From Amphibalanus amphitrite (taxonomy: Eukaryota > Arthropoda > Thecostraca > Balanomorpha > Balanidae): DNA of 64,000 bases. Both the position numbers and the translations under genes were made by a program. The stretch spans positions 62,001 through 126,000 of the forward strand of contig NW_024882868.1 in NCBI RefSeq assembly GCF_019059575.1. Direction: 5' to 3'. The notes under the pieces are model-generated. The model was not told the DNA's origin. It made no database searches and saw nothing but the letters and a program-made list of their open reading frames with translations. The stretch's first letter is position 1, and each line of letters begins with the position of its first letter. Positions 11,965 through 60,010 of this stretch are shown piece after piece.

Positions 11965-13526
11965 GTGAGTACATACGAGTACCTGGGACGTCTCGGAGAC
12001 CAGTGTTGACTCAGAGTTGGCATTATTTGACTCCGGATATGCAATATCATAGACTCAAGACTGTATGCTTCGGTATACTGAGGTCTATGGCAATATGCAG
12101 GAGTCCATAGTCAAAGTAAATGAACGAATGGAACTCCCAAGCCGGATTTCCTTGCCGGTCCATGGTTGTTATTTACTAAGGGTGGAGGGTGGTGGTGCCG
12201 CTCTTACCCACGGTTTTCCGCTACCGCTCCCCTAGCAGCTGCAGTGAATTAGCGTCGCTGACCATTGCCACCCGGTCGCTCTTCAACCCCAAACATCAAC
12301 ATCATCCCTAAACCGGTGTGTGGCCGAGTGTGTGGGAACCCCAGCAGGTGTCTACCACTCTTTGCTGGAGTGCTGAGTGTGGGTATTGGTCAGTACAAGT
12401 ACTTACCGCTCCCTTAGGTAGAAAGTTTTGGGGTTTCCACTGAACGTCCGTGAGTCACGGTGACTCACGAACAGTGACCGTGACTGAGGCACGTCTGCTG
12501 TTTGTTGTCTGACGCTGCGGGCCTGCGATTGACGCCACCTGGCAGCTGTAACTACGCCTGCTCACCTGCGAATGTCACTAAACCGAACTGAGCCGATGCC
12601 GCGCATTGCTGTCTGTTTTGCGAGGTAGCCTGATTTGTATCGCGCCACGAACGAGCCGTTTTAGCTGACGAACCATCTTACAATGCGGTAGTGCTATCCT
12701 AAGCCGACAATATGCCCTGAGCTACGGTGTCCGTCCTGGCTTACCTTTATGTGTGAATCGGTAGTTTGCGCCGCCCTGTTTCGTAATCCGTCCCCCACCT
12801 GTTCAGGTCCGGCTGACCATGCAGCGCTTATATAACACGTCGTTCGGTGTTTGCCTTGGCTCTCCCTCTCTGTCGCGGTGTTATTCCACGGTCAATCCCC
12901 GCTGAGCGTGCTACCTAGTGCACACTGTATAACGGCAAACCATGTATGTTTGCGTTGCGTTTTTCGACAGTCCTTGCCATGTTACGGTCGACTATGAAAT
13001 ATCCTCTCTTTTGTCGTCACCGTGACGACATGGAGCTTCCTGCCTATCTGTGTGCCCATCAGGGGGTTCCGAGCGGTTGCAGAGCGATCCCCGAGAGTTC
13101 GGGCCGTTTCCTTCCGCCCTGTGACGCTCCAATTTCCGGCCCCGGTCGTGCGCGACATTCTGGGAGCTCCCGGACCTCCCTTTGGTGGTGTCGTCACGTG
13201 CGACCGCCTGAATCCCTGCAATCTACCGTACCCTTCATGATGTCGCCACATGCGAATATGTGAATCTTGCTGAGTGTGACGCCTTCCCTATCACCTCCGT
13301 GACGTCACTTCTATGACTGTAAATACAAATTCTGTTTCACATGTGACCCCTTGCAGTGACGCCTTATCCCATTTGACATCACCGTTTATGACGGCTTGGA
13401 CTCAGCAGCCCAATGGTGTCTCCCTATGACGTCCCATGTGTCTGTTGTGTTTCAGGAGCTTGTGGAAAAGTAGCCACTTTGCGACTGTATCGTCCCCCTG
13501 TGACGCCAATGTTTATTGTGTTTCAG
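11965..13526 (+). other. Intron 3
   Basis: No exon is recognised. It contains a perfect palindrome with two AP-1-like sites (12449-12469). Its 3' end holds a decayed duplicate of the exon 4 acceptor (13456). Confidence 0.7.
12449..12469. promoter_or_regulatory. Palindrome with paired AP-1-like sites
   Basis: A perfect inverted repeat with arms CGTGAGTCAC and GTGACTCACG around one central G contains TGAGTCA and TGACTCA, the classical AP-1 (Jun/Fos) core in both orientations. Function in this intron is inference; a chance palindrome of this length is possible but uncommon. Confidence 0.35.
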
Positions 13527-13562
13527 GAGCCGGTGGAAAACTGGCCGCTGTGCGACTGTCTC
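13421..13562 (+). repeat. 71-bp duplication of exon 4 acceptor and exon start
   Basis: A copy of the exon 4 junction (TGTTTCAG then GAGCTTGTGGAAAAG) has its exon-start equivalent at 13456, 71 bp before the real start at 13527. The decoy frame meets TAG after five codons, so it cannot replace the functional exon. Confidence 0.85.
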
Positions 13563-13667
13563 ATTTCGTTTCACTCCAAGGGCTTCCCGTTGGAGAAGGC
13601 CATCCAGTACTCACAGCTGCGGAAACCGTTCATCATCAACAACCTACAGATGCAGTACACGCTTCAG
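13527..13667 (+). CDS. PPIP5K: PPIP5K exon 4
   Basis: Encodes 47 residues (118-164), [20 protein letters not shown] continuing through [14 protein letters not shown], phase 0 at both ends, donor [16 protein letters not shown] is among the most conserved PPIP5K kinase-domain blocks. The acceptor is partly duplicated 71 bp upstream. Confidence 0.97.
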
Positions 13668-14203
13668 GTAAGGCACATTGTGCAATGATGCAGGCTGGAG
13701 GGTTAGCTCTCAGTTACCCGATCCTAGTATAGGGGCATTCCACGTCAAGTGGGACAAAAAATGATCATTTTGAACCTCACCTCCTCCGATTTTTGCGAAA
13801 CTTTGTGAACCTAGTCATCTATATATGAAAAGAAAGGAGACATTTTTTTGTCAAGATATGACGTCACGTCTCCGAGATACACGTCATCAAACATTGACTT
13901 AGGCAAGGTACATTATCATTTTTAAAGCGTCATAACTATTGAAGTTTTAGACATATCACCACGAGACAAAGTGTGAAATGGAGGGAATAGATCACGCTTT
14001 CATTTGAGGATAACAATATTGACGTAATTAACTAATTAGTGAACTTAATTAAAATTCAAAAAATAAATTTTGATTTTCTGAAAAATGGGTATCCTTCGAT
14101 TTTGCTCATTTTTACATATTTTATTCTCCTATACATTAGCTGCATCATATAAAAAATCCAGAATGGGCCGACGTCTACGTAACTGTCTTTTGGACTTCGT
14201 AAT

Positions 14204-14650
14204 ATCTGGGACTCGCGTGTTTCGTTTTAGCAACCAAGGAGAGGCGCTACCCGGAGATGCTTCTTTCTACCCCAAACTAAAGCAAACCTAACCTGACCTG
14301 ACGTGACCTGACCTAATCTAACACGCGTAAATATGTACAGCCCTCACGGCAGTTGCCGACTGGCCAAATGCTACCTAGATAGGTACGAACATTAGCCCTC
14401 ACGACAGCTGCCGGCTGGCCAGATGCTACTTAAAAAACGAATGCGTGTTAAAACACTTCAGGGCTTAGGCTGACCGGCCGCGAGCCAGCGACCTTTAGCT
14501 TTCGAGGTGGGTACACTCGGCACACTTACTACTAAGCCACGAAGATAGCTGGTCATCGTAAGCCAGTTTTTAATGATTAAATTGGGTATTCTCCGGGCAG
14601 CGCCTTTCTTTGGTTGCAAAAAGGAAATACGCCTGACTCCCAGCGCTAGG
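14204..14650. repeat. Nested inverted repeat inside the foldback element
   Basis: The left arm (about 14206-14265, containing AGCAACCAAGGAGAGGCGCT) pairs with the right arm (about 14588-14645) in inverted orientation with moderate divergence. Between them lie CTGACCTGACC-type simple repeat, a direct duplication of GCCCTCACGGCAGTTGCC (near 14341 and 14395) and a tRNA-like segment. It looks like one repeat inserted in another. Confidence 0.5.
14470..14545 (-). repeat. tRNA-like SINE fragment
   Basis: On the minus strand the segment reads CGTGGCTTAGTAGTAAGTG, resembling a Pol III A box, followed about 40 nt later by GGTCGCTGGCTCGCGGC, resembling a degenerate B box. I cannot fold it into a full cloverleaf, so a tRNA-derived SINE head is more likely than a functional tRNA. 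Confidence 0.3.
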
Positions 14651-16079
14651 GGAGAAAGGCCCGGTTTAGCCAAAAAAAGGTATTAGAAAAACGGAATTTG
14701 AATTGTAGGTGGGGTGGGGAACTTTATCGTGTTCCAATTTCATGGTCCTAGATCAATATCTTCAAGATCAAATGAGGTTAAACGTGATCAAATTTGCTAT
14801 AGTGACTTTTTTGCGTTAATACGCCCATAGCTCTAAGAGTTACTGGCCGATTTTTCTATTTCTTCCTTTATACGACATTTGTAGTGTTATGAGAATCTCT
14901 AGTTAATCTTACCATAACTTTGGCAGTTAGTGGCCTGCTAAGAGTAAGATGGCGCCGGCAGAGGCGGGGATCGGCCGACGCGGGAAACGTTTCAGTCACA
15001 TTGTGTTTGCACCCTAATAACTCAATTTTTACTAGTTGATTTCGTATTTATTTGAACATTAGATTGCCTGTACATTTTTAAGCCTTCACACAAAATTTGA
15101 CACGAATCGATTATAATCAGCGGTAAGAAGCGCGGTGCAAAGATGGAACCGTCCCGCGCCGGCACAGTCTACCATTCAGGCGGCAACGGCCGGCGCCGGC
15201 CGCCGCGCCACTCCGGCAGGAATGTTTGACTTTACACCACTATTACTAGAAAAGTGGTGGACTGATTTGCCTATTGCTTGCACGGGAGGATGTGCAATTT
15301 AATTCTGGACAGATACTGAAAGTTTGACGTTAATATGATAATTATGGCGTGAGTTATTGGTGATAAACAGGTGGAGTTAGCGAAATCGGCCCCTTCCACC
15401 GCCCGTGCTACGTTGCACTACTTGTTGCTATATCATCCAAAGTTATCGTTGGCCCACTCTAATTTTCTCAGCACGTTTGCCTTACGTGTAGTGGAAGACA
15501 ATATCTAAATTTGAGCGAAATCGAAGGGTACCCATTTTTCACAAATAACATTTTAAGAAATAAATTCAAAATAAAATAAATTCAAAATCACCAAAAAATG
15601 TATAAATTGTCAAATTTAACTAGCATAACTCCTTATGTACACGTTTCAGTTTGTTTGAAATCAATAGCTTCAAAAATGTTGAAGCTATAGATCTTTCAAG
15701 ATTGCAATACACGTCCAATTCTGCTCAAAAAGCAAAAGTTTAGCGACTTGTATCTCTGTAGCCCGAGGGCATATGACAAAATCCTTTCACCCTCAGAGGT
15801 TTCACCCAATAGCCTATAAGAATACCAAGTTTGAACAAAATCGCAGAGGTGGCCGATTTTGGCTGTCCCGGTTGACATGGAATGCCCCTATAGTGTGTTG
15901 ATGCTGGGCCGCTGGGGTGGAGATTAGAGCATGATGGAGCTATTTATTAGATTAGAGCTATTTAATTACGAGGCGGGATGGGCGTGTCTCGGTGGGGTGG
16001 CGTCGGCAACGGGGCTCTCTGGACAACCTCTAATGCGCGACGCGTTCGGCTTGGTGGCGGCGACCGGCGATTTAGTTTG

Positions 16080-16257
16080 TTTGAATCCATTTTAAGTTCT
16101 TGTATATGTGTGTATGTGTTTATTTGCTTGTATGTTTTTTAACAGAGCTGGTGCCTCGAATTAAGCACTTTCGAGTGCTTTTGCACCAGTTCTTACTTAT
16201 CTTGATTTTGTGTATTCTTTTGTTTCTTAATAAACGTGATGATGATGATGATGATGG
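16080..16257 (+). mobile_element. Non-LTR retrotransposon 3' end (likely)
   Basis: The segment has a stem-loop at 16148-16189 (outer arms CTGGTGC/GCACCAG, inner arms AAGCACT/AGTGCTT closing a TTCG loop), then AATAAA at about 16229 and a (GAT)n tail. A 3' hairpin, poly(A) signal and short simple-repeat tail are typical of some LINE or SINE 3' ends. No reverse transcriptase frame is attached, so it would be 5'-truncated. Confidence 0.45.
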
Positions 16258-17208
16258 GCTCCGAGGACAGACAAGAAGCCTGGGAGTGGTTGGAGTAGAT
16301 GGTCAAAGCCGGGAAGAAGCAGGGGTCGTCGGGGGCGGGAGATGGGCGCGGCTGGGAATGGGAGGAGTCCTATTTGACCATCAAGTCACGTGTCCTTCCT
16401 TCCCGCACTTATTCTTCCCGCCTGACCGCTGACATTCTGATCCAACGTCCCTCTCCTGTTCTGTCTTTCTGTCTGCTCCTGTTCTGTCTGAAGCGCTTCC
16501 TTCCTGCTATATCCGCCCGATCTACTCTGGTATGTCCGGCTGTCCCGCCCATCTAAAGTCTCGCTGCTCGTCTACTGACCCTTCACCTGTCTGACGGGGG
16601 CCTGGCTCTGGCCCGGTGCCCAGGGCAACACGTCACAACGTCTGGTGGAAACTTACCTCTCAGAGGCTGCCGCCCGCGCCTGGTCGTAAATAAACACCGA
16701 GCGTGGCCACCGGGCCCTGCCACCGGGCCGGTGTCGCGCTACCGGGCGCCCGACGGCGCCCCACGCCCTACTGGGAACAAACCACAAAGGACCGTCTCTC
16801 GACCGAACAAAGACTTCCGACAAGTCGCCGAGAACCCCCGGGCTATCGTCCCTCCCCATACTCAGAGCTCGTCGTTCACCTCCGGCTACTACCCGGTAAC
16901 GGCCGTCGTTAACTGTATCGAGTCGGCACAGCCGCCGGGCAGACTCAGATGCCCTGTTATCTGTACGGAGTGCGCAGCCTGTTGTCTGTACGAGCCTACC
17001 CAGCCCCGCGGCGCTGTGGACTGTCGCGCACGGCTCTCCCGCCGTTCGTTACTCGTTCCGACCCGCTCGTTACCATCTCTGGTTAGAGGTGGCACACGGG
17101 CTGTTACTACGGTCTCGGCCGGGGGCCCGGCGGCAGAGTCGGGTTTTTGTCACTACCGCCACCGCCGCAATCAGGGCCGACAAAAACGACCGGACGACGG
17201 CGGGGACA

Positions 17209-17510
17209 GCGGCCGGACCAATCGCCGGTGTGTGTGTGTGAGGCACGTACCATCACTGATGGTCGGCAGGATACAGAGTCATCGCTCGCCCACTGTTCAC
17301 CGTCCACCAGGCAATAGCTAGGAGACAGCGGCCGGACCAATCACCGATGCGTGCGGCGTCCCATCGCTGATGGTCGGTAGGACACCAGTGGAGAAATCCA
17401 TCGTCCGCAGTGCAACGGCCACTGGCCAACAGCTAGGAGACAGCGGCCGGACCAATCACCAATGTGTGGCGCGTCCCATCACTGATAGTTGGCTGGACAC
17501 CGGCGGAGCC
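17209..17510. repeat. Three-copy tandem repeat, period about 112 bp
   Basis: GACAGCGGCCGGACCAATC followed by a CCATCACTGATGGTCGG-like stretch occurs near 17209, 17324 and 17438, with further similarity in the CAACAGCTAGG lead-in. Copies differ at several positions. Confidence 0.7.
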
Positions 17511-19305
17511 TTCGTCCACCGACTCTCACTCACCGTCGTCCATTATTTACCGTCCACCGTACAACAACGATCATTCATCGTCCACCAGCCAGTGTCCACT
17601 CGTCCACTGCCCTCCGGTTACCGTCCGCTGCCTATTGTCGACCAACCATGTCCAGTCCGTCTGCCGTCCACATACGTACAAGGCCTTGCTCATACCATCC
17701 GTTCATCGACCACTGAACCCAACCGCCGTCCACCGGCCTTCCACTCTCATCAGAAGCGCCGCCCTCCTTCAAACGATCTCATTCCTGGCCAGACCAGTTG
17801 CAATGGAGCGGACTATCCGTCATCATTTTCAGCTGTTGCGCCCTGTTACCAAGCTCCGTTTGGAGCCGTCTTAATCCGCGGAGAATGCGTCTGAACTCTG
17901 AAAACAGACCGAGCGCAGCTGATGAGGGCCGCTGGAGCGGTCGATAATGGCAGCGCTGTCGTCAGGCAGTCTGCCTGGTGATTGCTTCACATCCTTCTAT
18001 AGCTAATTTATTTATGCCCTTGTCCACTGCGCCCAGCTACGTGACATTACAATATGATGTCCGCACTGTTTCTGGCGCGGTAATAGCTCGCCTGTCCATT
18101 GTGTCTGGTCCTTTGAAAGCTCCACTGCTTGTTTTGTTTAGTCTGCTGCCTACTGTGCCCAGTCTGATGGTGCTCCATCGCACTGTCCGATTCGTCCGGT
18201 TTGCTGTCCGCTGTATTCTGCCCATAGTTAGGCTGCTCCGCCACTTGCTATGTCTAATCCACGGTATTCTAATTCCTCTACTGAATAACGATAGTCTGAT
18301 TCCGTCCACTGAATCCATTTTTCCACTGAATCCATTTTTGCGGTGCCGCCTTAGGTGTCGTATCGCTGCCGCCTCTGAGCAGGTGCTTACAGTTGGCAAC
18401 ACGCTCCCCGTGCACGCTGTTTTCTAGCTGCTGCCAGGGGACACGGAACGGGTCGATCGGATAGTCACTGGGGAGGGGATGATAGCGACACATGAGGCGA
18501 TATGCACGTGTTGCTTCACCCCTTGTAGCGGAGGTGAGGGATAAGCGTCAGGGGTGGCGGGGCAAGAGATTGGTCCTGGTGTGTCGTTGGGGGAAAGGGT
18601 AGACGAAAGGTGTGTGAATGTGTGGGTGGTCAGGTAAGCTCGTTAATGGGGGGGAGGGGGGGGGGGCGTCTAGCTCGGTCGGTGCGTGAGGAACGGACAA
18701 TAGCTGTGTCCCGATATATTTTGATTGCAAAGGCACTGCTCAGAGCATCCGATGGTTTATCTGGCCGTGTCATGACGCATCAGTATTTCTCAATGATAGT
18801 CCATTTCGTAACGTGTTTGGCACTTGATTCGCAGTGACTTGGCGCTTCAAGTAGTTGTGTGCCAACGGCTTCAGTAATTCCGTGACATCACTCGGGGTTG
18901 TTGGACATCCCGACATCCCCTCCTCCCTGATAACTGCGGACGTGCGCCGTGCGCAAGGCTCTATAGAAGCCGTGCGTGCACCCGCCACCATTCCATCAGT
19001 GTCGTGCTGTCCCACGCTATCATGTGCAGTATTTACCAACGTTATACACAGGCACGTGGGCCTTACCTATCTTATCTTACCTAAGCTGGAACATACAAAT
19101 CCATTATATGATTGGTTTTGGAGTTTTAAATCAATCCCCATACTCTGAAAAAAGTCAATGCTTTCTTCAGCGCGTGCGTGTATGTTTATTCTACATGCTC
19201 GATTAGCTACCGTTCATCACTGATAACCTCGAATGTGTGTTGCACCTCTTTCCATCAGTCTTCGTCTATCGGTGACCGCCACCAACATATCTCTCCCGTT
19301 TTCAG

Positions 19306-19396
19306 GACCGGCGCATGGTGTACCGGCTACTGGAGCGAGAGGGTATCGACCTGCCCCGGTTCGCCATCCTGGACAGGGACGCGCCAGACTTTGTCG
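19306..19396 (+). CDS. PPIP5K: PPIP5K exon 5
   Basis: Encodes [20 protein letters not shown] and [10 protein letters not shown] (residues 165-194), entering in phase 0 and leaving in phase 1 at G|GTACGT. EGIDLPR and the following LxRD motif are characteristic of the PPIP5K ATP-grasp domain. Confidence 0.96.
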
Positions 19397-22300
19397 GTAC
19401 GTAGAGCACGCTGACTGCCTCCCTTTTATCCACTCAAAGGAGGAATATTTCTTTACTTATACCCCTTAGTGTCCTCTGCCGTCAAATTATCTCTCTGCAT
19501 GCATTGCCTGCACCTCCGTCCCTAGTCCTAGGACAATGAGTGCTGTGGCTGCCGTTTGTTTCTGTGTTGACCTAAATGGATCCCCACATCCCAGCGGTCT
19601 GGAGAGCAGCAGGGGGTACCGACCCCCGCCAGCCTCTGAGTGCTATCGCTGTGGGCCAGGGGCTGCCAGTGGTAACGCTGCCAGTAGGAACGTTACCAGT
19701 GGGACGTCACCCCAGGGCTTCCATCCCGACTCGCGGTCAGTGACCGGTCAAACTCACTACACACTCTCACGCTCTGCCACACTTGGTTATACCCGGTGAG
19801 ACCCTAAACCCGGTATGTCGTCCTCATAAGCTGACGGACGGCTAACGCATAGCCCAGTGACTGACATAGCCCAGTCTGTGACTCACACACACTAATGATG
19901 CATCCCGGCTTAAATATGAATGACACAGCCCATACAGCACAGCCGGTGGCTGTCAAAGCGTGTACTCACACAATCCCGTCCGATGGCGGCCTGTGGTGGT
20001 AGGCTGTGCCGCACGACACGCCTGGGAGTCGATCCGACCCGGCCCGGCCCGCGCGGCGTGGCGTGGCGTCGTCGTTCGGCCGGGTGCCTGCTGCCAAAAT
20101 CGGTAGTCCGTAGTGAGTTTTCAGTGGACGGAGGTCGAGGTCGAACTGCCTGTGGTGGCGGCGTGGGACAGGGGAGGGGTTTGTTGTCTTCACAACATAC
20201 CGACAGAGGCGCTGTTTTGCATTGACAGAGCTATGGAGGCAGAGTGCCTTTTACTGTTGACACGGTTTATGAGGTGTAAAAAGCTGCTGTCGGAAGGCGG
20301 CAGCACAAAGAGAAAGGTACCATACCATACACTGTGGGATGCCTTTCGGTAATTAACCTGGTTATTTACACCAGTGTTTATAGAACGGTACGCATCTCAG
20401 CCGATAGAAGATCGTCCATAAACTTTTTGTTTTCGATGGGTCTAAATACCTGTTCCTGTTTTTCAGTTCCACCAGGTGCTCATTGCTGCCGTTACCCTTC
20501 CCACACCACTAAGCGGACCTGTTCCAAGAAGAAGCCCCTGTCCACTAAACGGACCTGGTGCCGTCCAAGAAGAAGACATTTAACGTAACCCCTCAATTAA
20601 CAGCAGATCCGACGGCACGACAGCGGGTCTTTGGCGGGAATTCCACCGCCGTTGGCAATTTCCTCTGAAAAGTTCGCCATTTACTCTCGCGCTCACTAAT
20701 TAAAGTCATCTACGCCTCGTGGCCGGCTTCAGCGCACAGGTCTCGGTCCTGGCTTCTGGCGACCGATTTCATAGTTCAATATAGCCCTTACTGCGATCTC
20801 TCTGGTCACTTAAGGCTTGTAGACACGTTGATCACCTTTGGTGACCTCTCGGGATTTCCCTGTTTCCTGGTGTCAGTCCGGTCATAGCCATGACCTTTGG
20901 GTCCCAGCTCATATCTGACGTCCTCTTTGGTCACCCACGGTCATGGCCACGACCTCTGGGTCTCGGCGCGGGACCGGTGGCTCCTCAGTTGGACGCTGTT
21001 GCTGAGCCATCACCACCTATCGACCGTAGCTAGCTCGTCCCGAGTCGGTCCGACGCGTCCGCTGCGACGGTGGCGACGGACAGCGACTGATGCGCCGTCC
21101 CATCTACGAACGGATCGCTCCCGACGGGTCCTCTGTCCTGTCATTCTGTCCGTCTATCCCCATATCCCTCTGTCTCTCCTTTCATTCGTACCTATCTGTC
21201 CTCCGTTCTGATTTGTTCTCCGCCATCTATCTGCTCCTATCTATCCACCCATCTGTCGCTGTGTTCAAGAGTGGAAAAGTTACCCCGGCCGCGCCGGGGT
21301 AGGCTGAAAGTTATCCCGGTCACGGCCGGGGTGGCCGGGCCAGGTTCTCCACCCATGGGCCTGTGTTCCTGTATCACTCTATCGCTCTACCCTCTGTCTC
21401 GCTGTCCCTCTGTCCCACTGTCCCCTGCCCCTGTCCTGTCCGTCTGTTCCTCTGGCCCTCTCTTCCTCTACCTTCCTGTATCCCTCTGCCCTTTTCGATA
21501 AGCAAGGGTTAGCGACTCGCGTATTGCGTCTAGTAGCGTCTCGAGAGTTATGTTTACGCCGTACGATAACGATATACGATCTGCATCAACATTGTGGAGT
21601 GGGGGTCTGCCGATTGACACATTCTTTGTTGTGTTAGCTTGGGCTGTTGGCAGGCTTGATTTATGACGCACTGCTGTCGTGAGCCTTGCAACCGTCTGTG
21701 ATCGCAAGTTGCTCTCGCGCTTAGTATGGTATCACTAATGAGCTTCACTTTTCGCACCAAATTTAATAATGATTCGATAATGATGATCTACCAAAGACAT
21801 CACCACGTCTCACAATCTGAATATCGCACCTGTCAACTAAATTCCCTTTATCAAAGTGCCTTGTCTAGGCCATATTCCTTTATCTGCGATTGGCCACTTC
21901 CGCCCGCTTCTCCTGTGACAATTTTGCCCCGGCCTTGTTTTACAGTGCTGGCAAGTGGTCCAGTTCAATGGCCAAGGTTAAGTTTAATGGCGATGTTGTC
22001 CCCCGCGCTCTCGCACATGTTCTTCATGCGGCCAGACTTCCTGCTTGCAATGGGTGACCCACACTTCCGCCTTCCGACACTTCCCACCGCCGCCTTTTTC
22101 TTTCTGTCCTCTCTTATAAATCATCAGACCTTCCCCTCTCAGCCTGTCCCCTTTCACTGTTCAGCTACCCAGACCTATTATCCCCGCTCTTGTCTTTACT
22201 TCCCCTGTCCCCTCTGACGGGTTGGCTGACGACCGAGACCTCCTTCCATGGTCCGCCCGTCCCCTCTTACGGTTCAGTAACCCAGACCTCCATCCCTGCC

Positions 22301-47332: not shown

Positions 47333-47448
47333 GGTGAAGAGCCGGATCCACGACCTGTTCCAGCAGGACCGCGACTTCACCGAGGACGACATCCATCAGC
47401 TGAACCCGACCGGCTCCATCAGCGTGGCCAAGGCGCTCAGCAGGCTCA
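47333..47448 (+). CDS. PPIP5K: PPIP5K exon 16
   Basis: Enters phase 2, leaves phase 1 at A|GTGAGT. Encodes VKSRIHDLFQQDRDFTEDDI and HQLNPTGSISVAKALSRL. Matches the family's moderately conserved helical insert of the phosphatase-like domain. Confidence 0.94.
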
Positions 47449-47791: not shown

Positions 47792-47878
47792 AGAACCCAG
47801 TGGAGACATGTGAGCTGGTCTACAGTCACCTGCAGAAACTGCTGGCGGTCATCACACCGAAAATGGAGGAGTCCAAAG
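47792..47878 (+). CDS. PPIP5K: PPIP5K exon 17
   Basis: Phase 1 in and out, starting AG AAC CCA. Encodes KNPVETCELVYSHLQKLLAV and ITPKMEESK. NPV at the start matches the conserved NPVxxC segment. The last 43 nt and the donor are the founder unit of a 12-copy array that fills the next 840 bp; only use of the first donor leaves the frame correct for exon 18. Confidence 0.93.
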
Positions 47879-49841: not shown

Positions 49842-50068
49842 AGCTCATCCTCTACCACGGGGAGAGCTGGGAGCTGATGCTGCGCCGCTGGGTCAAACTC
49901 GAGAAGGACTTCAAGACGGCCAACGGCAAGTTTGACATCAGCAAGATTCCTGACATTTATGACAACATCAAGTACGACCTGCAGCACAACCAGAAGGTGC
50001 TTCAGTTCGACGATGCTGAGGAGATGTACCGTGTTGCCAAAACGGTGGCCGACGTCATAGTTCCACAG
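49842..50068 (+). CDS. PPIP5K: PPIP5K exon 18
   Basis: Enters phase 1, leaves phase 0. Encodes [20 protein letters not shown], then [20 protein letters not shown] and a segment ending VADVIVPQ (residues 713-788). [17 protein letters not shown] is highly conserved in the phosphatase-like domain. The donor CACAG|GTCAGT has a decayed duplicate 48 bp on. Confidence 0.98.
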
Positions 50069-50130
50069 GTCAGTCGGGGATTGTGGGATATTGTGGGGGG
50101 AGTTAATAGTTCGTAGGTCAGTCGGACTTA
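50060..50130 (+). repeat. Two-copy duplication of exon 18 donor, 48-bp period
   Basis: CATAGTTCCACAG|GTCAGTCGG (GT at 50069) is echoed by AATAGTTCGTAG|GTCAGTCGG (GT at 50117). The similarity is about 20 bp long and could be coincidental. Confidence 0.55.
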
Positions 50131-50480
50131 TCCTAACATGAGATTTTATGGTCCGGCGACTTATGGAGCTTGCATTAAATGGAATTTTATAGGACCGCAA
50201 ATCATCCGAGCTTGGTCACTAGCGCTGCTGCTTGAGTATCCGCATGACCTCCATCTATCCCTGGCGCAAGTTTGAGTGAGTACCACTGCCATTGTTATCT
50301 GAGATGTGCGAATAAGGCCACCGGCCGATCATTCGTTATTAACACATTACGAAAACCGTTAAGTGCACGAGCGTAGAAGGTAACGTGATCTCGTTGATCA
50401 TTCACTGGTCATGCATCAATACGCTGGCTGTGCGCTGTTCATTGTACGTCGCTGACCCGCGTTCCTTCCTCTCCCGTCAG
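50069..50480 (+). other. Intron 18
   Basis: Apart from the donor duplicate near its start, no feature is recognised. Confidence 0.8.
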
Positions 50481-50617
50481 GAGTACGGTCTGACTCGTCA
50501 GGAGAAGCTCTCCATCGGTCACGGCATCTGCACGCCGCTGCTGAAAAAGATCCAGGCCGACCTGAGGCGTAACATCGACGAGGGCGCAGAGGAGAACGTC
50601 AACCGACTCAACCCCAT
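50481..50617 (+). CDS. PPIP5K: PPIP5K exon 19
   Basis: Phase 0 in, phase 2 out at AT|GTGAGT. Encodes EYGLTRQEKLSIGHGICTPL, then LKKIQADLRRNIDEGAEENV and NRLNP (residues 789-833). Strong match to arthropod PPIP5K (EYGLTPQEKLxIGQGICxPLLRKI). Confidence 0.98.
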
Positions 50618-50975
50618 GTGAGTGGTGGCCGGTGGCGGCGAGGGTGGTGGTGACTGAGGAGGGGGAAGGACGAGACTGACGGGATCTGTAGCGAATGAAA
50701 TAATTCTTGTGCTCAGACAGCGGTCGCCGAAAAAGGACTAATTAATTGCTCAATTACTGACTACAGGAGACGTCCTAGCATGTTAAAGACGAAATGTTCT
50801 GTATTTTGCAATGTCTATGGAACGTATCCGTCTTTTGTTCCCTGTCCTTTCAATCTCCTTTCAGCTGTTTACCTTTCCATTTCGCTCTTTCTCTGTCCAT
50901 CTTTTATCCCTGTGCCCACCTCCCTCTTCTCAGCCTCCCTCTGTACATCACTCACCCTCTCTCTCTCGTCGACAG
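50618..50975 (+). other. Intron 19
   Basis: A 358-bp intron whose second half is a long pyrimidine-rich tract before TCGACAG. Confidence 0.85.
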
Positions 50976-51090
50976 GTACTCTCGCGGCGTCTCCAGTCCT
51001 CAGCGACACGTACGAACGCGGCTCTACTTTACCAGTGAGAGTCACCTGCACTCGCTGCTCACAATGCTGCGATACGGAGGGCTGGCAGAC
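50976..51090 (+). CDS. PPIP5K: PPIP5K exon 20
   Basis: Phase 2 in, phase 0 out. Encodes [20 protein letters not shown] and [18 protein letters not shown] (to residue 872). [19 protein letters not shown] is nearly invariant in the family. Short decayed repeats follow the donor. Confidence 0.99.
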
Positions 51091-51300
51091 GTGAGTGGAG
51101 GGTGATCGTCGTCTTATTGATGCTTGGGCTAGTGATGGGTGTGCGCGGTCTTATTGAAACTTTGGCTAATGAAGGATGATCACTGTCTAGATGATGCGTA
51201 GGCTAGATATAGTTATCATCGTGTATTTCATACCTGGGATGATGGTGATAGGCGATCGTCGTCTAAGAGATATGTGGTCTCAACAAGGTAGTGTAAACTT
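51091..51300 (+). repeat. Decayed repeats after exon 20 donor
   Basis: From the donor onward, units of about 35-45 bp with GGTGATCGTCGTCTTATTGA, GCGCGGTCTTATTGAAACTT, GATGATCACTGTCTAGATGA and GGCGATCGTCGTCTAAGAGA recur, suggesting an old donor-proximal tandem array. Confidence 0.45.
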
Positions 51301-51522
51301 TATGGAGTACACAGGACGGGTGACTATTGTGATGTGCGGTTTGGGTGTGGTGGGGCTGGCTCTGATGGATGTGGGTACGGGATTGAGAGGATTCTAATTA
51401 AGACGAAATGTAGCACGTATGACGAACTACCGCGGTGGGTAGAGCGTCAAATTGTGTACATACCATGGCTGGTTAGGGTTGACTTTGCTAAGTAGTGTTG
51501 GAAAGGGCTGACTGTGCTGACC

Positions 51523-51703
51523 GTGACCGTGACCGTGACCTGACCTGACCCTGACCCTGCCGCAGGAGGGCCGTGACGAGCAGTGGCGGCGGGCCATGGA
51601 GTACCTAACCTGACCGTGACCTTACCCGTCCCTGACCTGACCCTGACCCTGCTCTGACCTGCAGGAGGGCCGTGACGAGCAGTGGCGGCGGGCCATGGAG
51701 TAC
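51523..51703 (+). repeat. 99-bp duplication of exon 21 acceptor and exon start
   Basis: CTGCCGCAG|GAGGGCCGTGACGAGCAG at 51566 and CTGCAG|GAGGGCCGTGACGAGCAG at 51665 share 39 identical exon nucleotides through GAGTAC; the upstream copy then runs into CTAACCTGA, a stop. TGACC repeats fill the space between them. Confidence 0.92.
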
Positions 51704-51792
51704 TGCTCAGCCGTGTCCGAGCTCAACTACATGTCACAGGTGGTCATCATGCTCTACGAGGACCCCACTAAGGACCCGCTCTCCGAGAACAG
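51665..51792 (+). CDS. PPIP5K: PPIP5K exon 21
   Basis: Phase 0 in, phase 2 out. Encodes [20 protein letters not shown] and [20 protein letters not shown]. SELNYMxQ(I/V)VIMLYED is a hallmark of the family. Both junctions are duplicated: the acceptor 99 bp upstream and the donor twice downstream. Confidence 0.98.
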
Positions 51793-51850
51793 GTAGGCCC
51801 GCTCTCCGAGAATTGGTAGGACTGCTTTTCGGGAACTGGTAGGACCTTCG
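51775..51850 (+). repeat. Three-copy array of exon 21 end/donor, 23-bp period
   Basis: CCGCTCTCCGAGAACAG|GTAGG, CCGCTCTCCGAGAATTG|GTAGG and TGCTTTTCGGGAACTG|GTAGG (GT at 51793, 51816 and about 51839) are successive, increasingly diverged copies. Confidence 0.85.
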
Positions 51851-51902
51851 TATTTCATAATGACCAAACAATCCTCTCCTAACGGCTGTCCTCTGATTTC
51901 AG

Positions 51903-52002
51903 GTTCCACGTGGAGCTCCACTTCAGTCCCGGCGTGAACTGCTGCGTCCAGAAGAACCCTCCTCAGGGTCCCGGCTTCCGGCCGCAGTCTCGCGGTGACA
52001 TG
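51903..52002 (+). CDS. PPIP5K: PPIP5K exon 22
   Basis: Phase 2 in, phase 0 out at ATG|GTGAGT. Encodes [20 protein letters not shown] and [14 protein letters not shown] (to residue 948), ending the phosphatase-like domain. [14 protein letters not shown] matches arthropod orthologues; the histidine in HVEL may be the second catalytic histidine of this phosphatase family (inference). Confidence 0.98.
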
Positions 52003-53040
52003 GTGAGTTACCTCCCTTTACCCCTTACCCTCACACCGTGCCGTGCCGTGCCGTGAACACGTTTTGACGGGAGCGCCGGTCCGTTTTTTGGGCCCCGCCC
52101 CGCGGCTGACTGTGTGCGGTGTGGCACGGCGCATGTGAACCATGTACTCACGTACTGGGAGTAACTGATAAAACGTCCCGGATCAGTGAGACCCAGACGG
52201 GGTCATTGACCCCGCTTGACCGTTTGTGATTACGGAAGTTTCTTTCGATTCTGGCTGCCCGTTGTAGATATGCATATTGCATATGCAGTGCTCTGATCTG
52301 CTTTGTGCGGGCTTGATCACTCGTCACGCGCTGTCGATTTTTTCACGTACGCACGTGCCCCACCCACCGGTCAGAATTACCCGGTCAGCAATGGTCTGAC
52401 TTATCAGTCATAATGCCCCTATATATGTTCATTAAATATGAAAGGTGCGGACGGTATTCGTGAGCAGATTTTAGTTCACGAAATTTTGCATTTAGCGCTT
52501 ACTTTCACTTCACCTATTTCGTTTTACAATAGGGCACCTTGCGAAGCTTTTAGAAAAAAGCACAAAGCATCAAAAACTTTGGAGGGATTTTGGTGTGGAA
52601 TGTAAAGATAAGAGCAAACTTACTGATGGCAATCTAGTTGACTTCTTGGCGCCGAAAAGTTGAAGCCGGGGATCCAATAAGTCAAACTGCAACACCAAGG
52701 ACGAACCAAATGCCCAAAGTTCGAGGCCCTAAAAAAACCTGTTGCAACGCGCACGATGTTAGCTACCTGTGGCGCACTCAGGATCTGAGTGTAGGCCATG
52801 ATGTTCACTGAATGGGGACCCATACTAATAAGGTGTAATTTTGGGTGTCATTTTCCAGTATTGCTGTATTTTTTCCAGTACCGCTGTCGCTGCGCATGAG
52901 TACCCTCCGCACCCTGTATTCTCCGTGCCGTGCTGCGGTACGTCTGGCCGCGTGCTGCCCTCCCCGTGTGTGCCCTGTGTGCCGTGTGGCGTGCCGTTCT
53001 GACGAGTGTCCGGCGCGCTGTGCCCGTTCGGTAGCATAAG
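52003..53040 (+). other. Intron 22
   Basis: No transposon is recognised. A 20-bp tandem TTTTCCAGTANNGCTGT duplication lies at 52853-52890 and TGCCGTG-rich simple sequence precedes exon 23. Confidence 0.7.
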
Positions 53041-53139
53041 CCGACTAACGCTGCGGTGCGTCGTCCGCCGTCGATGATCGAGGAGGAGGCGGAGCCGGCC
53101 GACAGTGGCTCGGAACCCGACAAACACTCCGACTACCAG
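53041..53139 (+). CDS. PPIP5K: PPIP5K exon 23
   Basis: Phase 0 at both ends. Encodes a linker with PSMIEEEAEPADSGSEPDKH ending SDYQ, donor GTGACT. An acidic IEEE-containing segment follows the phosphatase domain in arthropod PPIP5Ks. The acceptor is ambiguous: GTAG at 53034 and ATAAG at 53040 are both in frame, differing by two codons. The upstream polypyrimidine tract is weak. Confidence 0.7.
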
Positions 53140-53777
53140 GTGACTATAGTGAAGACGGGAGAGTATAGAGGGAACGGGATGCATTGAGCATACGGCACAA
53201 TTCTATCACTGAGACGCAATGGCTGGATGGACCTCCGGAACAGGACACAGGGCACTATTTCGGAACAGGGCACTATTCAACTACAGAGACACGCAGGGTA
53301 TATTATTAATATGACGTTGCTCGAACACGTAGACGTAATATGGATATACTTCCTCATGCGACCACTCAGAAATAGGATCAGAACACGGTACAATGGAGGA
53401 TACGGCGTTACCCGACCATACAGGCGAGCAGAAACAGGAGCTCTTCTGTGAGGCCACATGGAGTGCAGGGTATGATCTTAGATTGTGGCTGGCGTCTGAT
53501 GAAGCCTGTCTGTTCTTGTTTGATGTCGGATGTCGCTTGACTGTCTAATATCGCTGGCCGCTGTGACACCTCGTGTATGTTTCTTCACCTGACGTCTTAT
53601 TGCTCTGACACTGACTCTCAAAAATCGGTATGGGATGTTCGATCCTTGACAACCCGTGTCTGTGCCTTTATCGGACATCTGTCTGACCAGTCTGACGGCT
53701 CTCGTGTGTGCCTGATGTCTGTTGTTAAACAACCTCTGTCTATCTGACTTCTAACACCTGTTGTTTGTGTCTTCCAG
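53140..53777 (+). other. Intron 23
   Basis: No element or exon is recognised; a short GGAACAGGGCACTATT duplication occurs near 53236-53278. Confidence 0.75.
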
Positions 53778-53830
53778 TCGAGTTCCAGCAGAACCAGCTG
53801 GCTGCCACAGTCACAGCCGATTAACATCAG
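53778..53830 (+). CDS. PPIP5K: PPIP5K exon 24
   Basis: A 53-nt exon, phase 0 in and phase 2 out at AG|GTAAGC, encodes SSSSRTSWLPQSQPINI, a serine-rich tail segment. Splice sites and phase are good but the sequence is not conserved enough to confirm; it could be alternatively spliced. Confidence 0.65.
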
Positions 53831-54078
53831 GTAAGCGGGCGTCGGGATTTTTTTTCGGCGGCAAGAACCGAAGGAGGAGTGGCCGTTGGCCACCGATCAC
53901 ACACCGTCCCCTGCATAAACGGGGATGCAAATTTCAGCTTACTTCCTGCCTATAGACCGCCTGACTGCCACATAGTTCGTGTGTGAGACGGATAGAAGAG
54001 CTAGTACACGCGTTGTGTTCACCCCGGTTCGGTCCTTATCGTCCGCCCGTCTGACGGCTGGCCTCTGTGTTCCTCCAG

Positions 54079-54257
54079 CCGCGTGGCCACGTCTCCCGCG
54101 CACCTGTCGCCGCCGCACCAGGACCTGCTCCGCTCGTGCTCCCACCCCGGCTCCCCGGACCGTAAGGGAGCCGGCACGGGAGCCGAGGAGCGGCCCCGGA
54201 GCCTGGAGGGTCTGATGGAGCGGGGCATTACCGAACCACCGCCGGCAGTGCGACCAG
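54079..54257 (+). CDS. PPIP5K: PPIP5K exon 25
   Basis: Phase 2 in, phase 1 out at G|GTGGGT. Encodes a Ser/Pro-rich, probably disordered segment including SPAHLSPPHQDLLRSCSHPG and RSLEGLMERGITEPPPAV (residues about 999-1058). GC-rich third positions support coding. Such linkers are typical between the phosphatase domain and the conserved C-terminal block. Confidence 0.75.
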
Positions 54258-55743
54258 GTGGGTACCGGGAGACGGTAGATGTACAAACATAGTCGGGTGG
54301 GGCGGAGAGACGTACTCAGGCAGAGACAGAGACAGATGAGCATGACGGATAGACGGAACAGGGAGAGACGTGCACATATACGCAGACAGATAGACGGAAT
54401 AGACGTAGACGGACTTAGTGCCGATTTATTAGTAGTGAGCGCTTAGGCAGGAGCGAGTATTTGGTAGATTTAACAGGAAGTTATGAGTATGAGTGGCCGG
54501 CCGTTTACTCACACTCATCACACCCGCACTCACCACCCTTACACTCACCACACTCCACACTTACACTATGTGAGTGAAGTTAACCACACGGGTGAATAGA
54601 AAAGGGACAACCTGGTTTGTGATTCGCCAGTCTCGGTGGGATTCGATGTGGAACCCGTTTCAGAAGGTTGGAACTTGAAATGGTTGCCATGGATCCAGAT
54701 GGTTGTCGAAATACACCGGCATCGGAAGAAACACACCGGCATGAACATCGGAAGAAACCTTGCATCGGCTCGTGCAGGGCAAGGGATTAAGGCCATTCTT
54801 GAACACATTCCAACACGGGCAGTTATTCGCCACAAGCTGACGTATAATTGAGTGCATATTTTGCAGGACCTATGGAGTCGTTCTCGTGACACGCTGTTCA
54901 AACACTCAGTAATGAGACACGGCCGCATTTTGCAATTCCTTTGTGTATTTCTTTGTATTTTTCTGGCAAAGTTTGATGGAAGTTAAAAGCTCAATCTAGG
55001 GAGGCTTGTTGAAGCGTCCTACTGTGCGAGGAGTTTGCTACAGACGGCATTATATCTGGTTTAGTTTATTGCTGTATTATGACCTTTACCACACCTTTAC
55101 GTATTTACAGTAGGCGAAATTGGGCCGTAGGCCCAGGAGTTCTATCAAGTGGTTCTGTAAAGATGAAGCTAATTGTTTGCTTTTTAGTTGCAAGTGTAGG
55201 TACAAAATATTAAAGCATTCAAGAAATATGTCGTTGAATTGCCATCTCAGTTTCTCATTGTAGGTTGAAGTTCAGCTTGACGAGCGTAATATTATGAATT
55301 AGATAAAGATGTGATGCTTTGGACATGCTCCAAGATGACGCAGTTGAATGTGTTCCAGAAATATTGACGCATTGCGAGAAGGCACCATTCATTATTTCTT
55401 GTTTCCATTGACATCCTATCTAAATTCTTTTGACGCACTAACCTGGCATGCGACCATCCCCTTTGATGTGATAAAAGGCCACTCACCAAACCATCCGCAC
55501 ACAATATTGAGAGCAACGCACGTTAGCTGCTGTTAAGAAGGCCCAAGCTCAAGCACCTGCCCCAGAGGCTGGTTGACTGCACTGAGCTAGTTCGAGTAAG
55601 GTTGAGCTATCCAGAGCTCTTGCAATATCGGTCAAATGATTAACGATGCTTGATAGATATGCATGTTTTCTCTTGCACGCCTGAGAGAGCTCCGTTCGTT
55701 TCCGATCACACCTTAGCTCATATTTCCGAACTTACCTCTTCAG
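54258..55743 (+). other. Intron 25
   Basis: Simple AGACAG/AGACGGA-rich sequence (54300-54415), ACTCACCAC repeats (54510-54565) and an otherwise AT-richer stretch. No exon is recognised. Confidence 0.65.
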
Positions 55744-55878
55744 AGGAGCTCGGCGGCGGTGCGCGGCGGGCGCGTGCCGCGTCGGTGCGCTCGGCGCTGC
55801 TCCAACTGCTCTCAGCGCTCCGTCAGCGGACGGCGGCGGTCCCCGGTGACCGGAGCCGGCCCGCTAGCTGGGCAGGCG
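55744..55878 (+). CDS. PPIP5K: PPIP5K exon 26
   Basis: Phase 1 in and out. Encodes EELGGGARRARAASVRSALL and QLLSALRQRTAAV, then a short basic stretch. Two in-frame donors are possible: G|GTGACC ending 55845 and the stronger G|GTAAGC ending 55878, differing by exactly 33 nt. The helical, alanine/leucine-rich content is not recognised from orthologues. Confidence 0.6.
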
Positions 55879-57437
55879 GTAAGCGGACGCGGGTGAAGAG
55901 ACAGACGGGAGCGGGCTTCACTCTCCTCTCCGTGCCGTTTTACCTACAGCACTCTCCTACCTTCTTTATGGAAAGATGGTAGCAGTCCTGTTTTCCTGAC
56001 TGCACGACATGCATAGCCGTGACGCGGTGACCAGCGAGGTCACTCCTGTGGTCAGTCGCAGAGCTGTGCAGTCCAAGTTCGTGAACGCTTTTCTAGCTGT
56101 GGTTGGACTCTTACTGTTGAGAAGACTGAGTGATCCTCTGAAGTGCAGCTGTCACAAAACGCTTTCCGGAATGCAGCTCGTCGCTTGGTGGCTTCTATCA
56201 GCAAACGCGTGGCTAGGTCGCTGCTATTCTGCTACTTTCTAGGTGGTTGGGCTGGGTCGGATGAATGATGATTCTGTCCCTGTGCGCCAAGTGGAGCTTG
56301 AGGCGCGGCTGCTAGGCCTGTCGTCTTTCCACCATGCCACTGCGGAACGCTCAAATGGGTGCTTCGCTTTACACGCTTTACAAAGCACAGCATCGGCCAA
56401 GGGCGCAGGCTACACCGTGTGCTTTACTCTCCACCACTTCTACTGCATGCTGGTTGCTACCTAAGGGTGTTCAGAGACACCACACAAATGGACAATAAGA
56501 AGAGGTATAATATAGAGACGGACTGAGACCTTGTAGGCACATGGAACGACAGACAGACTGGCTAGCATATATCAGACACTGGCTGATGATAATCGCCCTC
56601 TTCAAATTGTCCTCACTCAAAGACGTTAATTAGAAATAGGTCATTGCACGATTCTGTAAAAGCTAGTTGTATCTATCTTCAACTACTATCCTGCACGCGC
56701 AGTGTGTGCTGTATCGTCTGAGGGGTGTGGGGCCGGCCGCGCGGGTCCGGTGGGGCGCCCCGGGGTCATTGGGGGTCATTGCATGTGCTCCTCTCCGCGG
56801 CACGTATTTATCATATTTGGCCAGCACTCAGCAGTCACTCCCAGTGGGGTCAGGCACGGGACAGCGACCTTTGCTGAAGGCTATGTCTGCTAGGGCTGCC
56901 GGCGCCTCAGAGACCTGGGACAGTTAAGTGGTAGTGTAGGCTCCTCACAGTGCTTCACACACATCAGCGCCAAGCTGTGTTTTGGTTACACAGTACTGTG
57001 TTTGATTAGATTGTATTTAGAGTATGTATAATGTATAATGTATATAGATGTTGACTGTAGAACATAACCTCGCTATAATCCCTTACCATTTCACTATATT
57101 TATGACGACCTCCTAATCGGATATCTTGCGAGGGAGGCCTCTGCTTCTTACCCATGCAGGGCTCAAGTGAAAACTAAAAGACGGGACGCGATAGAATACA
57201 AGTATAATTCTATAGCTAGAGCAGATAGTCTCGGCACGACGAGCAGGTTAGACGGTCAGCTGCGGCAGTAAAGTGGTCATTGGACCAGAGCGCATGTGGC
57301 GGTGTAGTCCGGCCATGACCCGTACCGCCTCTGTCTGTGATGACCCCGGTGCAGTCCGACCCCGGCCGGCCCCAGGACGCCCGACTGCCCCGCCATCTAG
57401 TTAGCGTGTGACTAACTTCGGCTTGTCTGCCCGCCAG
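55879..57437 (+). other. Intron 26
   Basis: No exon or transposon is recognised in this 1.56-kb stretch; short open frames lack motifs. Confidence 0.6.
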
Positions 57438-57440
57438 CAG

Positions 57441-57473
57441 ACGGCGTCAGCGAGCAAGACGACGACGACGAAG
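57441..57473 (+). CDS. PPIP5K: PPIP5K exon 27 (microexon)
   Basis: A 33-nt exon (phase 1 in and out) encoding DGVSEQDDDDE, donor G|GTGAGC. The acceptor is a NAGNAG pair (CCAGCAG): splicing three bases earlier at 57438 would insert one alanine-containing codon in frame. Acidic microexons are common in such tails; support is from splice sites and phase. Confidence 0.6.
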
Positions 57474-58777
57474 GTGAGCCAATAAAACGGGGATATTGTG
57501 ATAATCAAGAAAAGCTGAATCTACTCGTCGAGCTAATTAGGACTTTTAGTCATTCATGCATACATGGAAGAATATCGGTTTTCTTGTGGCCCGATTTTCT
57601 TAGGCGCCTTTTATGATGTGCTTGTGAAAGCTAAAATCGACTTAGCAGAATAAAGCATTCCGCTTAGCCAATTACATAGCTGTAGTTATCGCTGAGTAGA
57701 ATCAGTTGTCTAGTATAGTTAGTAGCTACCAAATAATGGTCTGACTACCAAACATGTCTATTTATTTGCCCGTTATTGTTTTATTTCCGCGTTCCGTACA
57801 ACCTTTCACAGTGCTCTGTCCATTGCCATCCCACTGTCAGTTATCTCACCTCACCCCTCCCCATCAGAGCTGCTCCTTCAATCACCACCCCATCCACTGA
57901 CGTCCGCCACCCCTGGATGATATACGTGTACTCCGTCCATCAGTCACCCCGGCTGTTTTTTCCCACCAGACCTGCCCCGTCTTTGACCACCCCATTCACT
58001 GACCTCTCTGGCCCTAGTCAGATCTGTTCCGTCCATTCCTACCCTACCCCCGACCTCTCCATCACCACAAGGCTGAGTCACCAACAGCTCGCCAGTAATT
58101 CACCTCTCTGTCCCCTGCGGCAGACCTTTTCGCCTACTACTCCCTCCCTTTTGTACAGAACTGCTCCGGCAGCGTCACCCCTTCCATCAACCTCTCCCCC
58201 TTCCACATACATAGCTACTCCGTTCTTTACCACTCCCTCACTACCCCCTCCACAGAGCTCCGCCGCCAGTGTCACTCGGTAGTCGGTACCATCCCAGACA
58301 CAGTACGGTGCCCTCTCAGCCACTTACCTCCCCCCTCCCCCCCCACAGAGCTCCGCCGGCAGCGTCACTCAGTACCCTCGCAGACACAGTACGGTGCCGT
58401 CTCACTCACTAACCCTCCCCCTCCCCCCCCCCCCCACAGAGCTCCGCCGCCAGCGTCACTTGGTACCCTCGCAGACACAGTACGGTGCCTCTCAGCCACT
58501 AACCCCCTCCCCCCCCACAGAGCTCCGCCGCCAGTGTCACTCGGTACCATCCCAGACGCAGTACGGTACCCCATCAGCCACTAACCCCTCCCCCCCCCCC
58601 CCACAGAGCTCCGCCGGCAGCGTCACTCGGTACCCTCGCAGACACAGTACGGTGCCCCCTCAGCCACTAACCCCCTCCCCCCCTCCACAGAGCTCCGCCG
58701 GCAGCGTCACTCGGTACCATCCCAGACACAGTACGGTGCCCTCTCAGCCACTAACCCCCTCTCCCCCCCCTCCACAG
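57474..58777 (+). other. Intron 27
   Basis: The second half (about 57830-58777) is a decaying array of exon 28 acceptors; the first half shows nothing recognisable. Confidence 0.75.
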
Positions 58778-58825
58778 AGCTGCGCCGGCAGCGTCACTCT
58801 GTACCCTCGCAGACACAGTACGCCC
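57830..58825 (+). repeat. Acceptor/exon-start array of exon 28, at least 8 copies
   Basis: Clear copies begin at 58159, 58256, 58349, 58440, 58521, 58607, 58691 and 58778 (functional), spaced 97, 93, 91, 81, 86, 84 and 87 bp. Each is poly-C then CACAG|AGCTCCGCCGGCAGCGTCAC, a CGCAGACACAGTACGG-like stretch and CAGCCACTAACCCC. Weaker relics near 57867, 57967 and 58018 suggest the array once extended further. Copies 58607 and 58691 are open and in frame with the functional exon. Confidence 0.93.
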
Positions 58826-58966
58826 ACCAGCTGTCCATCCTGAACCAGCAGCTGCAGCTGGGAGCGCCCGGCGGCTCGGCCAGCTCCCTGTTCTCCACGG
58901 CTGTCATCAGCGGGTCGTCGTCGGCGCCCGAGCTCAAGTCACTCTTCACACCTGTCACGGCCATCG
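58778..58966 (+). CDS. PPIP5K: PPIP5K exon 28
   Basis: Phase 1 in and out. Encodes ELRRQRHSVPSQTQYAHQLS, a glutamine/leucine stretch, then LFSTAVISGSSSAPELKSLF and TPVTAI. LFSTxVxxGSSSAPxL matches the conserved C-terminal segment of human PPIP5K1 and PPIP5K2. It is the last copy of an acceptor array; upstream acceptors could extend it by 29 or 57 residues. Confidence 0.93.
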
Positions 58967-59370
58967 GTGGGTAGAGGGGCGAGAGGGGAAGGGAGGGCGG
59001 CGGGATCACACGTTCTGCAGTATTTACTAGATGGCGGGGTGGATGAATGGTGTGAACCAACCGTGGTATAGAGTACGGCTGATGAATGTGGATAGAGTAA
59101 TGTGGGATATAAGTTCTGAGGTGTCCATGGTTTGAAGTACGGGTAGGGGAAGGGCGACATGAGACAAATATGTTAAAGGGGCCGGTTCAGAGGGACACTA
59201 GGAGTAGCGTCAGGGTAGGCGGGGATAGGTAGATATTAGCGAAAACTAGTAGTGGATGTGCTGGGAGTGTAGTCTGCGCAGCTCCATGACGGGCTGATGC
59301 ATATGCTGAGGTATCTGAAGCAGTGAAGAAGTGCAGTAATTGACTACCCTATCCCTCCCCGCTCTGACAG
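58967..59370 (+). other. Intron 28
   Basis: A 404-bp intron with no recognised element. Confidence 0.85.
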
Positions 59371-59559
59371 GCATCGAGGGCTGCGGCGGCGTGCCGTCCA
59401 TCCGGCCCTTAGAGACGCTGCACAACGCCATGTCACTGCGTCAGGTGAACGCCTTCATCGACCGGGTCACGTCGATGGAGTTTCGCGCACCGCCGCCGGC
59501 GGCGGCCGCCGACCAGCCCGACCGGCCGCCGCCGCTCGGCCTGCACTCACCAACTCACA
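59371..59559 (+). CDS. PPIP5K: PPIP5K exon 29
   Basis: Phase 1 in and out. Encodes GIEGCGGVPSIRPLETLHNA, MSLRQVNAFIDRVTSMEF, then a Pro/Ala-rich stretch to PTH. EGCxxVPxIxPLETLHNAxSLRQV is the conserved C-terminal motif of animal PPIP5Ks. The donor CACA|GTGAGTCGG is the first of a long donor array. Confidence 0.97.
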
Positions 59560-60010
59560 GTGAGTCGGAGAGGATAGTCACACAACTGTAACCGGCCGCC
59601 GCCGCTCGGCCTGCACTCACCAACTCACTGTGAGTCAGAGAGCTTACCAACTCATAGGGAGTCGGGGAACCGAGCCATATTAGTAACTAACTAAACACAC
59701 TACCCACTACCCAGCCGGACCGGCCGCCGCCGCTGCTGCTGAGCCTGCACTCACCACTCACCAACTCACAGTGGGTCACACTGATCACCAACTTACAGTG
59801 AGTCGGAGAGCTCACCAACTCACCACAGTGAGTCGGATACACTCACCCGCACACAGTGAGTCAGATACTCTTACACACAGTGAGTCAGATACTCCTACAT
59901 ACAGTGAGTTGGAGAGCCCGATCAGATAGCTCACAAACGGTGAGTCGGACAAATCACCAACTCAGTGAGTAGGATACACTCACCCACATGCACGATGAGT
60001 CGGACAGCTG
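59515..60010 (+). repeat. Donor array after exon 29, about 11 GTGAGT copies
   Basis: The exon end CCGGCCGCCGCCGCTCGGCC through CTCACCAACTCACAGTGAGTC recurs at 59592 (near perfect) and 59717 (diverged), and CAGTGAGTCGGA-type donors recur near 59627, 59768, 59797, 59827, 59857, 59880, 59904, 59939, 59967 and 59995. Short interspersed CACTCACC motifs make up the spacers. Confidence 0.88.

Follow-up and report, generated by a model that had tools for sequence, protein, structure and literature searches.

Tandem copies of splice junctions in a barnacle PPIP5K gene: probable mirages in an arthropod

How does an intron come to carry several copies of its own splice junction? This question is raised by PPIP5K of the barnacle Amphibalanus amphitrite, a gene on the plus strand of the window, i.e. 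the stretch of 64,000 nucleotides analysed here (C1371:62001-126000, from a genome of 807,550,619 bases in 2,644 contigs). We find tandem copies at 10 junctions in nine PPIP5K exons, namely at six acceptors (exons 4, 7, 8, 13, 21 and 28) and four donors (exons 14, 17, 21 and 29; numbering follows the 30-exon model of a first-pass annotation of the same DNA). We consider it likely that these arrays are mirages as described in amphioxus, that is, ordinary tandem duplications at junctions that are tolerated by splicing and stay visible for longer at exon edges.

Junction arrays in two copies of the gene region

The gene model rests on tblastn with a human PPIP5K sequence and on manually assigned splice sites. 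Twenty exons (11839-52002), with exon 10 ending at 38845, join into a single open frame, and 22 of the 30 exons are verified; exons 23-27 (between 52002 and 58778) and both gene ends lie outside the verified model. Contigs C1579 (window positions 124-50626) and C1761 (about 52347-60600) together make up a homologous second copy of the region, which is colinear with the window but has gaps; spurious placements on C1761 of exons 20-22, which lie beyond its cover, and one partial exon 28 match were ignored. Across 713 codons of 16 exons the two copies differ by 68 synonymous and 0 nonsynonymous changes, and 37 of 319 fourfold sites (11.6%) are different. From these sequence differences we infer that the second copy is probably the other haplotype rather than a paralogue, while an intact recent duplicate is also possible; fourfold diversity of about 20% has been published for a barnacle, according to the accessible part of that report (PMC8270832).

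In the following list, as throughout, a decoy is an extra junction copy located in the intron, whereas the working copy is the one joined to the exon body.

11839..59559, plus strand: PPIP5K coding region, verified part, 22 exons with 44 junctions
13439..13526, plus strand: exon 4, decoy acceptor and exon start upstream of the exon at 13527, period 71; 2 copies in the window, 3 in the second copy of the region
29083..29253, plus strand: exon 7, decoy acceptors upstream of the exon at 29254, offsets -153 and -58; 3 copies in the window, 5 in the second copy (two of those without AG at the aligned place)
37382..37557, plus strand: exon 8, decoy acceptors upstream of the exon at 37558, offsets -155 and -74; 3 copies in the window, 3 in the second copy at the same threshold
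43058..43356, plus strand: exon 13, decoy acceptors upstream of the exon at 43357, offsets -275, -176 and -86; 4 copies in the window, 2 in the second copy
46375..46526, plus strand: exon 14, decoy exon end and donor after the donor at 46374, period about 45; 4 copies in the window, 6 in the second copy
47833..48716, plus strand: exon 17 (47792-47878, donor 47878), array of exon end and donor, period 74; 12 copies in the window, 3 in the second copy
51544..51664, plus strand: exon 21, decoy acceptor and 39 bp of exon start upstream of the exon at 51665, period 99, 2 copies
51771..51846, plus strand: exon 21, repeats of exon end and donor (donor 51792), period 23, about 3 copies
58232..58777, plus strand: exon 28, array of acceptor and exon start upstream of the exon at 58778, period about 81-93; 7 full copies including the working one in the window, 8 in the second copy
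58778-58966, plus strand: exon 28, frame assumed from its peptide
59371-59559, plus strand: exon 29
59560..60007, plus strand: exon 29, repeats of exon end and donor after the donor at 59559; 8 decoys in the window by a 21-base count, 4 nearby decoys in the second copy (9 and 5 with the working copy)

A weaker exon 28 copy at 58155 is left out of the count, as is, for exon 29 in the second copy, a match farther off at +577. Copies are spaced by 23-30, 45-46 or 58-99 bp, with a single gap of 114 at exon 29. At each array the exon-proximal copy continues the open reading frame and the remaining copies are intronic.

Seven of 40 junctions score at least 30 and above all 100 dinucleotide-preserving shuffles, the exons at 58778 and 59371 being outside this test. 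The donor of exon 21 is weak by alignment (score 21 versus a shuffle maximum of 20), yet it is also a 23-bp array in Tandem Repeats Finder (TRF). The first-pass annotation had named at least ten exons with such copies. Nine of its ten exons stand, including all six acceptors and the donors of exons 14, 17, 21 and 29; the donor of exon 18 (50068) does not exceed the shuffles (25 versus a maximum of 27, p=0.03) and is unproven. Its copy numbers of 2 to 12 agree with our counts, and its reading of the arrays as separate local events of one kind, with copies ranging from identical to heavily decayed, is supported.

The second copy of the region covers 8 of the 10 arrays, both arrays of the exon at 51665-51792 falling into a stretch that neither contig covers. 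All 8 comparable arrays are present there and copy number differs at 7 of them, in agreement with the continuing process proposed earlier. Long-period arrays number 0 in one second-order Markov sequence. As the arrays are shared with differing copy number, the junction arrays are neither chance nor merely misassembly.

Decay and splice signals of the decoys

Tandem duplications of the ordinary intronic kind, some 25-100 bp long, would give rise to such an array wherever one of them happened to include an exon-intron junction. If splicing keeps to the exon-proximal site, such duplications would be tolerated, and the unchanging exon edge would keep the array recognisable for longer and may seed new copies, i.e. 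neither targeting of junctions nor a function of the decoys would be needed. The acceptor decoys decay in a manner that fits this scheme. In 29 of them (28 from both copies of PPIP5K and 1 from a myosin gene) the exon-derived part is 87.1% identical to the working copy and the intron-derived part 75.5%, which corresponds to a divergence of 12.9% versus 24.5%, about half, as would follow from an exon copy held constant by selection and a decoy free to drift. This set omits the exon 8 decoy at -155, two exon 7 decoys without AG and the weakest exon 28 decoys. A frozen exon edge would thus about double the recognisable lifetime of a junction array. Selection on the decoys themselves was tested by the same divergence and is unsupported for acceptors.

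Nevertheless, several observations weigh against so simple a scheme. Donor decoys display no clear half-divergence. In some decoys the exon part is perfect and the intron part strongly diverged (28/28 versus 28/44 at the myosin exon L047, 28/28 versus 33/43 at exon 21), a combination not well predicted by simple decay. A comparison of proximal and distal similarity gave a mixed result, 51 pairs for and 37 against: among acceptor decoys, similarity to the working copy tends to be highest next to the exon, a pattern not followed by the donors of exon 14 and, in the window, exon 17. To these points the array counts given below have to be added.

Most decoys have retained their splice signal. Among decoys whose boundary could be mapped, AG or GT is kept in 31 of 31 for the window and in 21 of 24 for the second copy; at exon 29, GT is kept in 7 of 8 window decoys. 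Use of a decoy is predicted to shift the frame or to meet a stop for 28 of 31 window choices, e.g. the exon 4 window decoy has an in-frame stop, and an in-frame, stop-free insertion is predicted for three window choices and two in the second copy. These 31 choices differ somewhat from the 31 mapped decoys, as they exclude exon 29 and the weakest exon 28 decoys and include two exon 21 donor decoys; 26 of the 31 were translated, and 5 of the 11 exon 17 offsets were deduced from the 74-bp period.

Frequency of arrays at junctions and in control genes

Whether tandem repeats overlap junctions more often than intron positions had been put forward as a genome-wide test. At the level of this gene, an excess appears when separate long-period arrays are counted and not clearly by position or by junction. 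By position, the seven junctions out of 40 compare with 12.1% of 1,500 intron positions (rotation p=0.25), and with 60-base windows 9 of the 44 PPIP5K junctions compare with 13.3% of 2,070 intron positions (binomial p=0.12); in the second copy the count is 6 of 33, with p=0.036-0.115 depending on the threshold. There is no clear excess at this level, partly because short-period and low-complexity repeats fill the introns. When separate arrays with a period of 40-300 bp are counted instead, 7 of 15 overlap one of the 44 junctions versus 2.5 expected (p=0.007). The corresponding numbers in the second copy are 5 of 9 versus 1.4 expected (p=0.006) and, at the highest threshold, 5 of 6 versus 1.0 expected (p=0.0004). 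Counted per junction with the same shuffles, the excess is not significant in the window (6 of 42 versus 3.6 expected, p=0.20), and 5 of 34 junctions of the second copy carry arrays versus 1.8 expected (p=0.06).

The array counts were obtained at four score thresholds, with window p values from 0.001 to 0.022, uncorrected, and with a period range and masking picked once the position test was done; if 10 hypothetical junctions are added to stand for unlocated ones, p lies between 0.005 and 0.047. All these values flatter PPIP5K because the gene was picked for arrays that had already been noticed. Even so, the array-level excess is larger than the twofold predicted by slower decay, high-scoring arrays included, so that some real preference for junctions may exist.

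As controls served 20 myosin loci, to which 14 myosin and 4 kinesin exons were added, a small set that leaves out edges less than 150 bp from a locus end (among the added exons, 5 of 28 edges). There is no excess at the control junctions, either by edges (4 of 71 versus 4.1% of 787 non-exon positions) or by arrays (2 of 6 at junctions versus 2.8 expected). Among these four edges L038 is probably a profile match overrunning its junction and L039 a TGACC-type repeat, both of which were kept; in the 20 central myosin exons alone, 1 of 40 edges scores at least 30. Two myosin exons do carry junction-spanning duplications, L047 at an acceptor (about 180-325, period 98) and L042 at a donor (about 83-264, period 124).

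The density of arrays in PPIP5K had been called unusual, and repeats are indeed more frequent at its junctions than at those of the control genes (9/44 versus 4/71, Fisher p=0.03). This higher rate is in line with its repeat-richer introns, in which the 13.3% quoted above stands against the 4.1% of the control loci. The gene region also holds 15 long-period arrays in 50 kb, the remaining contig 14 in 112 kb.

As a separate observation, the stretch 10-100 bases upstream of PPIP5K acceptors (21 exons, 11839-58778) is enriched in CTGAC/TGACC motifs, some of which form TGACC tandem repeats; CTGAC occurs 0.81 times per 90 bases versus 0.16 (0 of 2000 resamples). The enrichment is not clear in the myosins. 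We take the motifs to be possible repeated branch-point-like motifs. A TGACC-rich repeat near the exon 21 acceptor (51517-51661) is also present on at least 13 other contigs. On C339, C1145, C1161 and C1355, matches to kinesin exons agree exactly in score and spacing, pointing to segmental copies of recent date or to duplicate assembly.

Origin of the arrays and relation to known systems

Several explanations compete with that of tolerated duplications. Long-read assembly might have produced false tandem expansions, and the near-perfect 12-copy array at exon 17 and a perfect 373-bp tandem duplication within an intron (40036-40786) would suit such an error. As the second copy has a long match only around its start, the latter is either recent or an assembly error. 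The junction arrays as a whole can hardly be explained in this way, as a separately assembled homologous copy contains all 8 comparable ones with distinct units and another copy number at 7, and misassembly is not expected to yield decayed copies; we regard an artefact as highly improbable. Alternatively, the decoys might be kept for regulation, i.e. their use would yield mRNA with a shifted frame or a stop, and its degradation would tune the PPIP5K level. Both the retention of AG and GT and the predicted effect on the reading frame would agree with this, whereas exon-derived sequence in the acceptor decoys diverges as fast as unconstrained DNA would, the second copy of the region has other copy numbers at most compared arrays and amphioxus mirages, as far as the accessible descriptions go, left normal splicing undisturbed. 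Such a regulatory role is thus very unlikely, though slightly less so than an artefact.

A more serious competitor is that exon edges are true hot spots, owing to the pyrimidine tract, CAG|G or transcription-linked lesions, or that an immortal exon copy does the seeding, so that introns grow from their ends. The array-level excess (a factor of 2.8 for the window and 3.6 for the second copy) speaks for this, as do the proximal decoys, which are closer to the working copy in most copy pairs at each of the 5 acceptor loci with at least two decoys, and the crowding of long-period arrays in the gene region. On the other hand, there is no clear excess by position or per junction and none in control genes, PPIP5K was chosen for its arrays, donor arrays are mostly without the proximal pattern, and only some 6% of the counted intron sequence is decoy DNA. 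We therefore think hot spots or seeding unlikely. In a stronger form, for which we see only a slightly better chance and which we offer as speculation, exon edges would be immortal seeds: the working copy, frozen by selection, would keep founding copies and give rise to a self-renewing class of junction-anchored minisatellites. If true, seeding would lengthen introns from their ends and supply ready-made splice-site pairs, and the class would extend to strongly heterozygous animal genomes well beyond amphioxus.

Tolerated tandem duplication, the explanation that we favour, places the arrays beside a known phenomenon. The accessible parts of the amphioxus literature use the name mirages for minisatellites at exon-intron boundaries, described in globin genes and, from earlier work, in Adh3 (PMC3087553), with PGBD5 and troponin C added later (PMC3902484). 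There, BflGb6 has 6 and 3 units in two haplotypes and is spliced regularly; the mechanism is called unclear and intron gain is proposed (PMC3087553). Somatic instability is reported for the Adh3 mirage, and generality within cephalochordates is called only possible. Among the literature matches listed, judged by title or start of abstract and with subscription journals mostly outside their scope, none concerned junction repeats in arthropods, and the accessible parts of reports on Daphnia tandem repeats (PMC3152781) and the amphioxus huntingtin gene (PMC2206037) contain nothing on junction repeats. The arrays described here are thus possibly the first report of mirages from an arthropod.

As mirages in an arthropod, ten cases in one gene and two in myosin genes would mean that such structures form in animals far apart, and together with the divergent second copy they would make the rate, decay and splicing effect of mirages measurable. 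For annotators the arrays are a warning, as decoy exon edges can mislead gene prediction.

The PPIP5K arrays are not new in kind, i.e. they have the same arrangement as amphioxus mirages. As far as these are described in the sources accessible to us, the tandem unit spans the exon-intron boundary in Adh3, BflGb6/BflGb9, troponin C and PGBD5 just as in PPIP5K, either boundary can be copied (here six acceptors and four donors, many decoys with AG or GT), and copy number varies between haplotypes, the second PPIP5K copy being an allele by inference. Spacing is 23-99 bp (once 114) in PPIP5K, as compared to 10-72 bp in Adh3, 60 and 108 bp in PGBD5 and 150-160 bp in the globins. What differs is the arthropod host and the occurrence at ten junctions of one gene. 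The genome has 150 scored matches, from 705 candidates, to the cuticle domain Chitin_bind_4, which fit an arthropod and led us to discard amphioxus as a possible host. Ordinary intronic minisatellites of PPIP5K have overlapping periods, and several are likewise of unequal length in the window and the second copy, but they lack exon sequence. Finally, intron gain by tandem duplication, as reported for potato RdRp and Drosophila, has in common with the barnacle arrays a duplication that carries splice signals, whereas in PPIP5K it is existing introns that have been lengthened.

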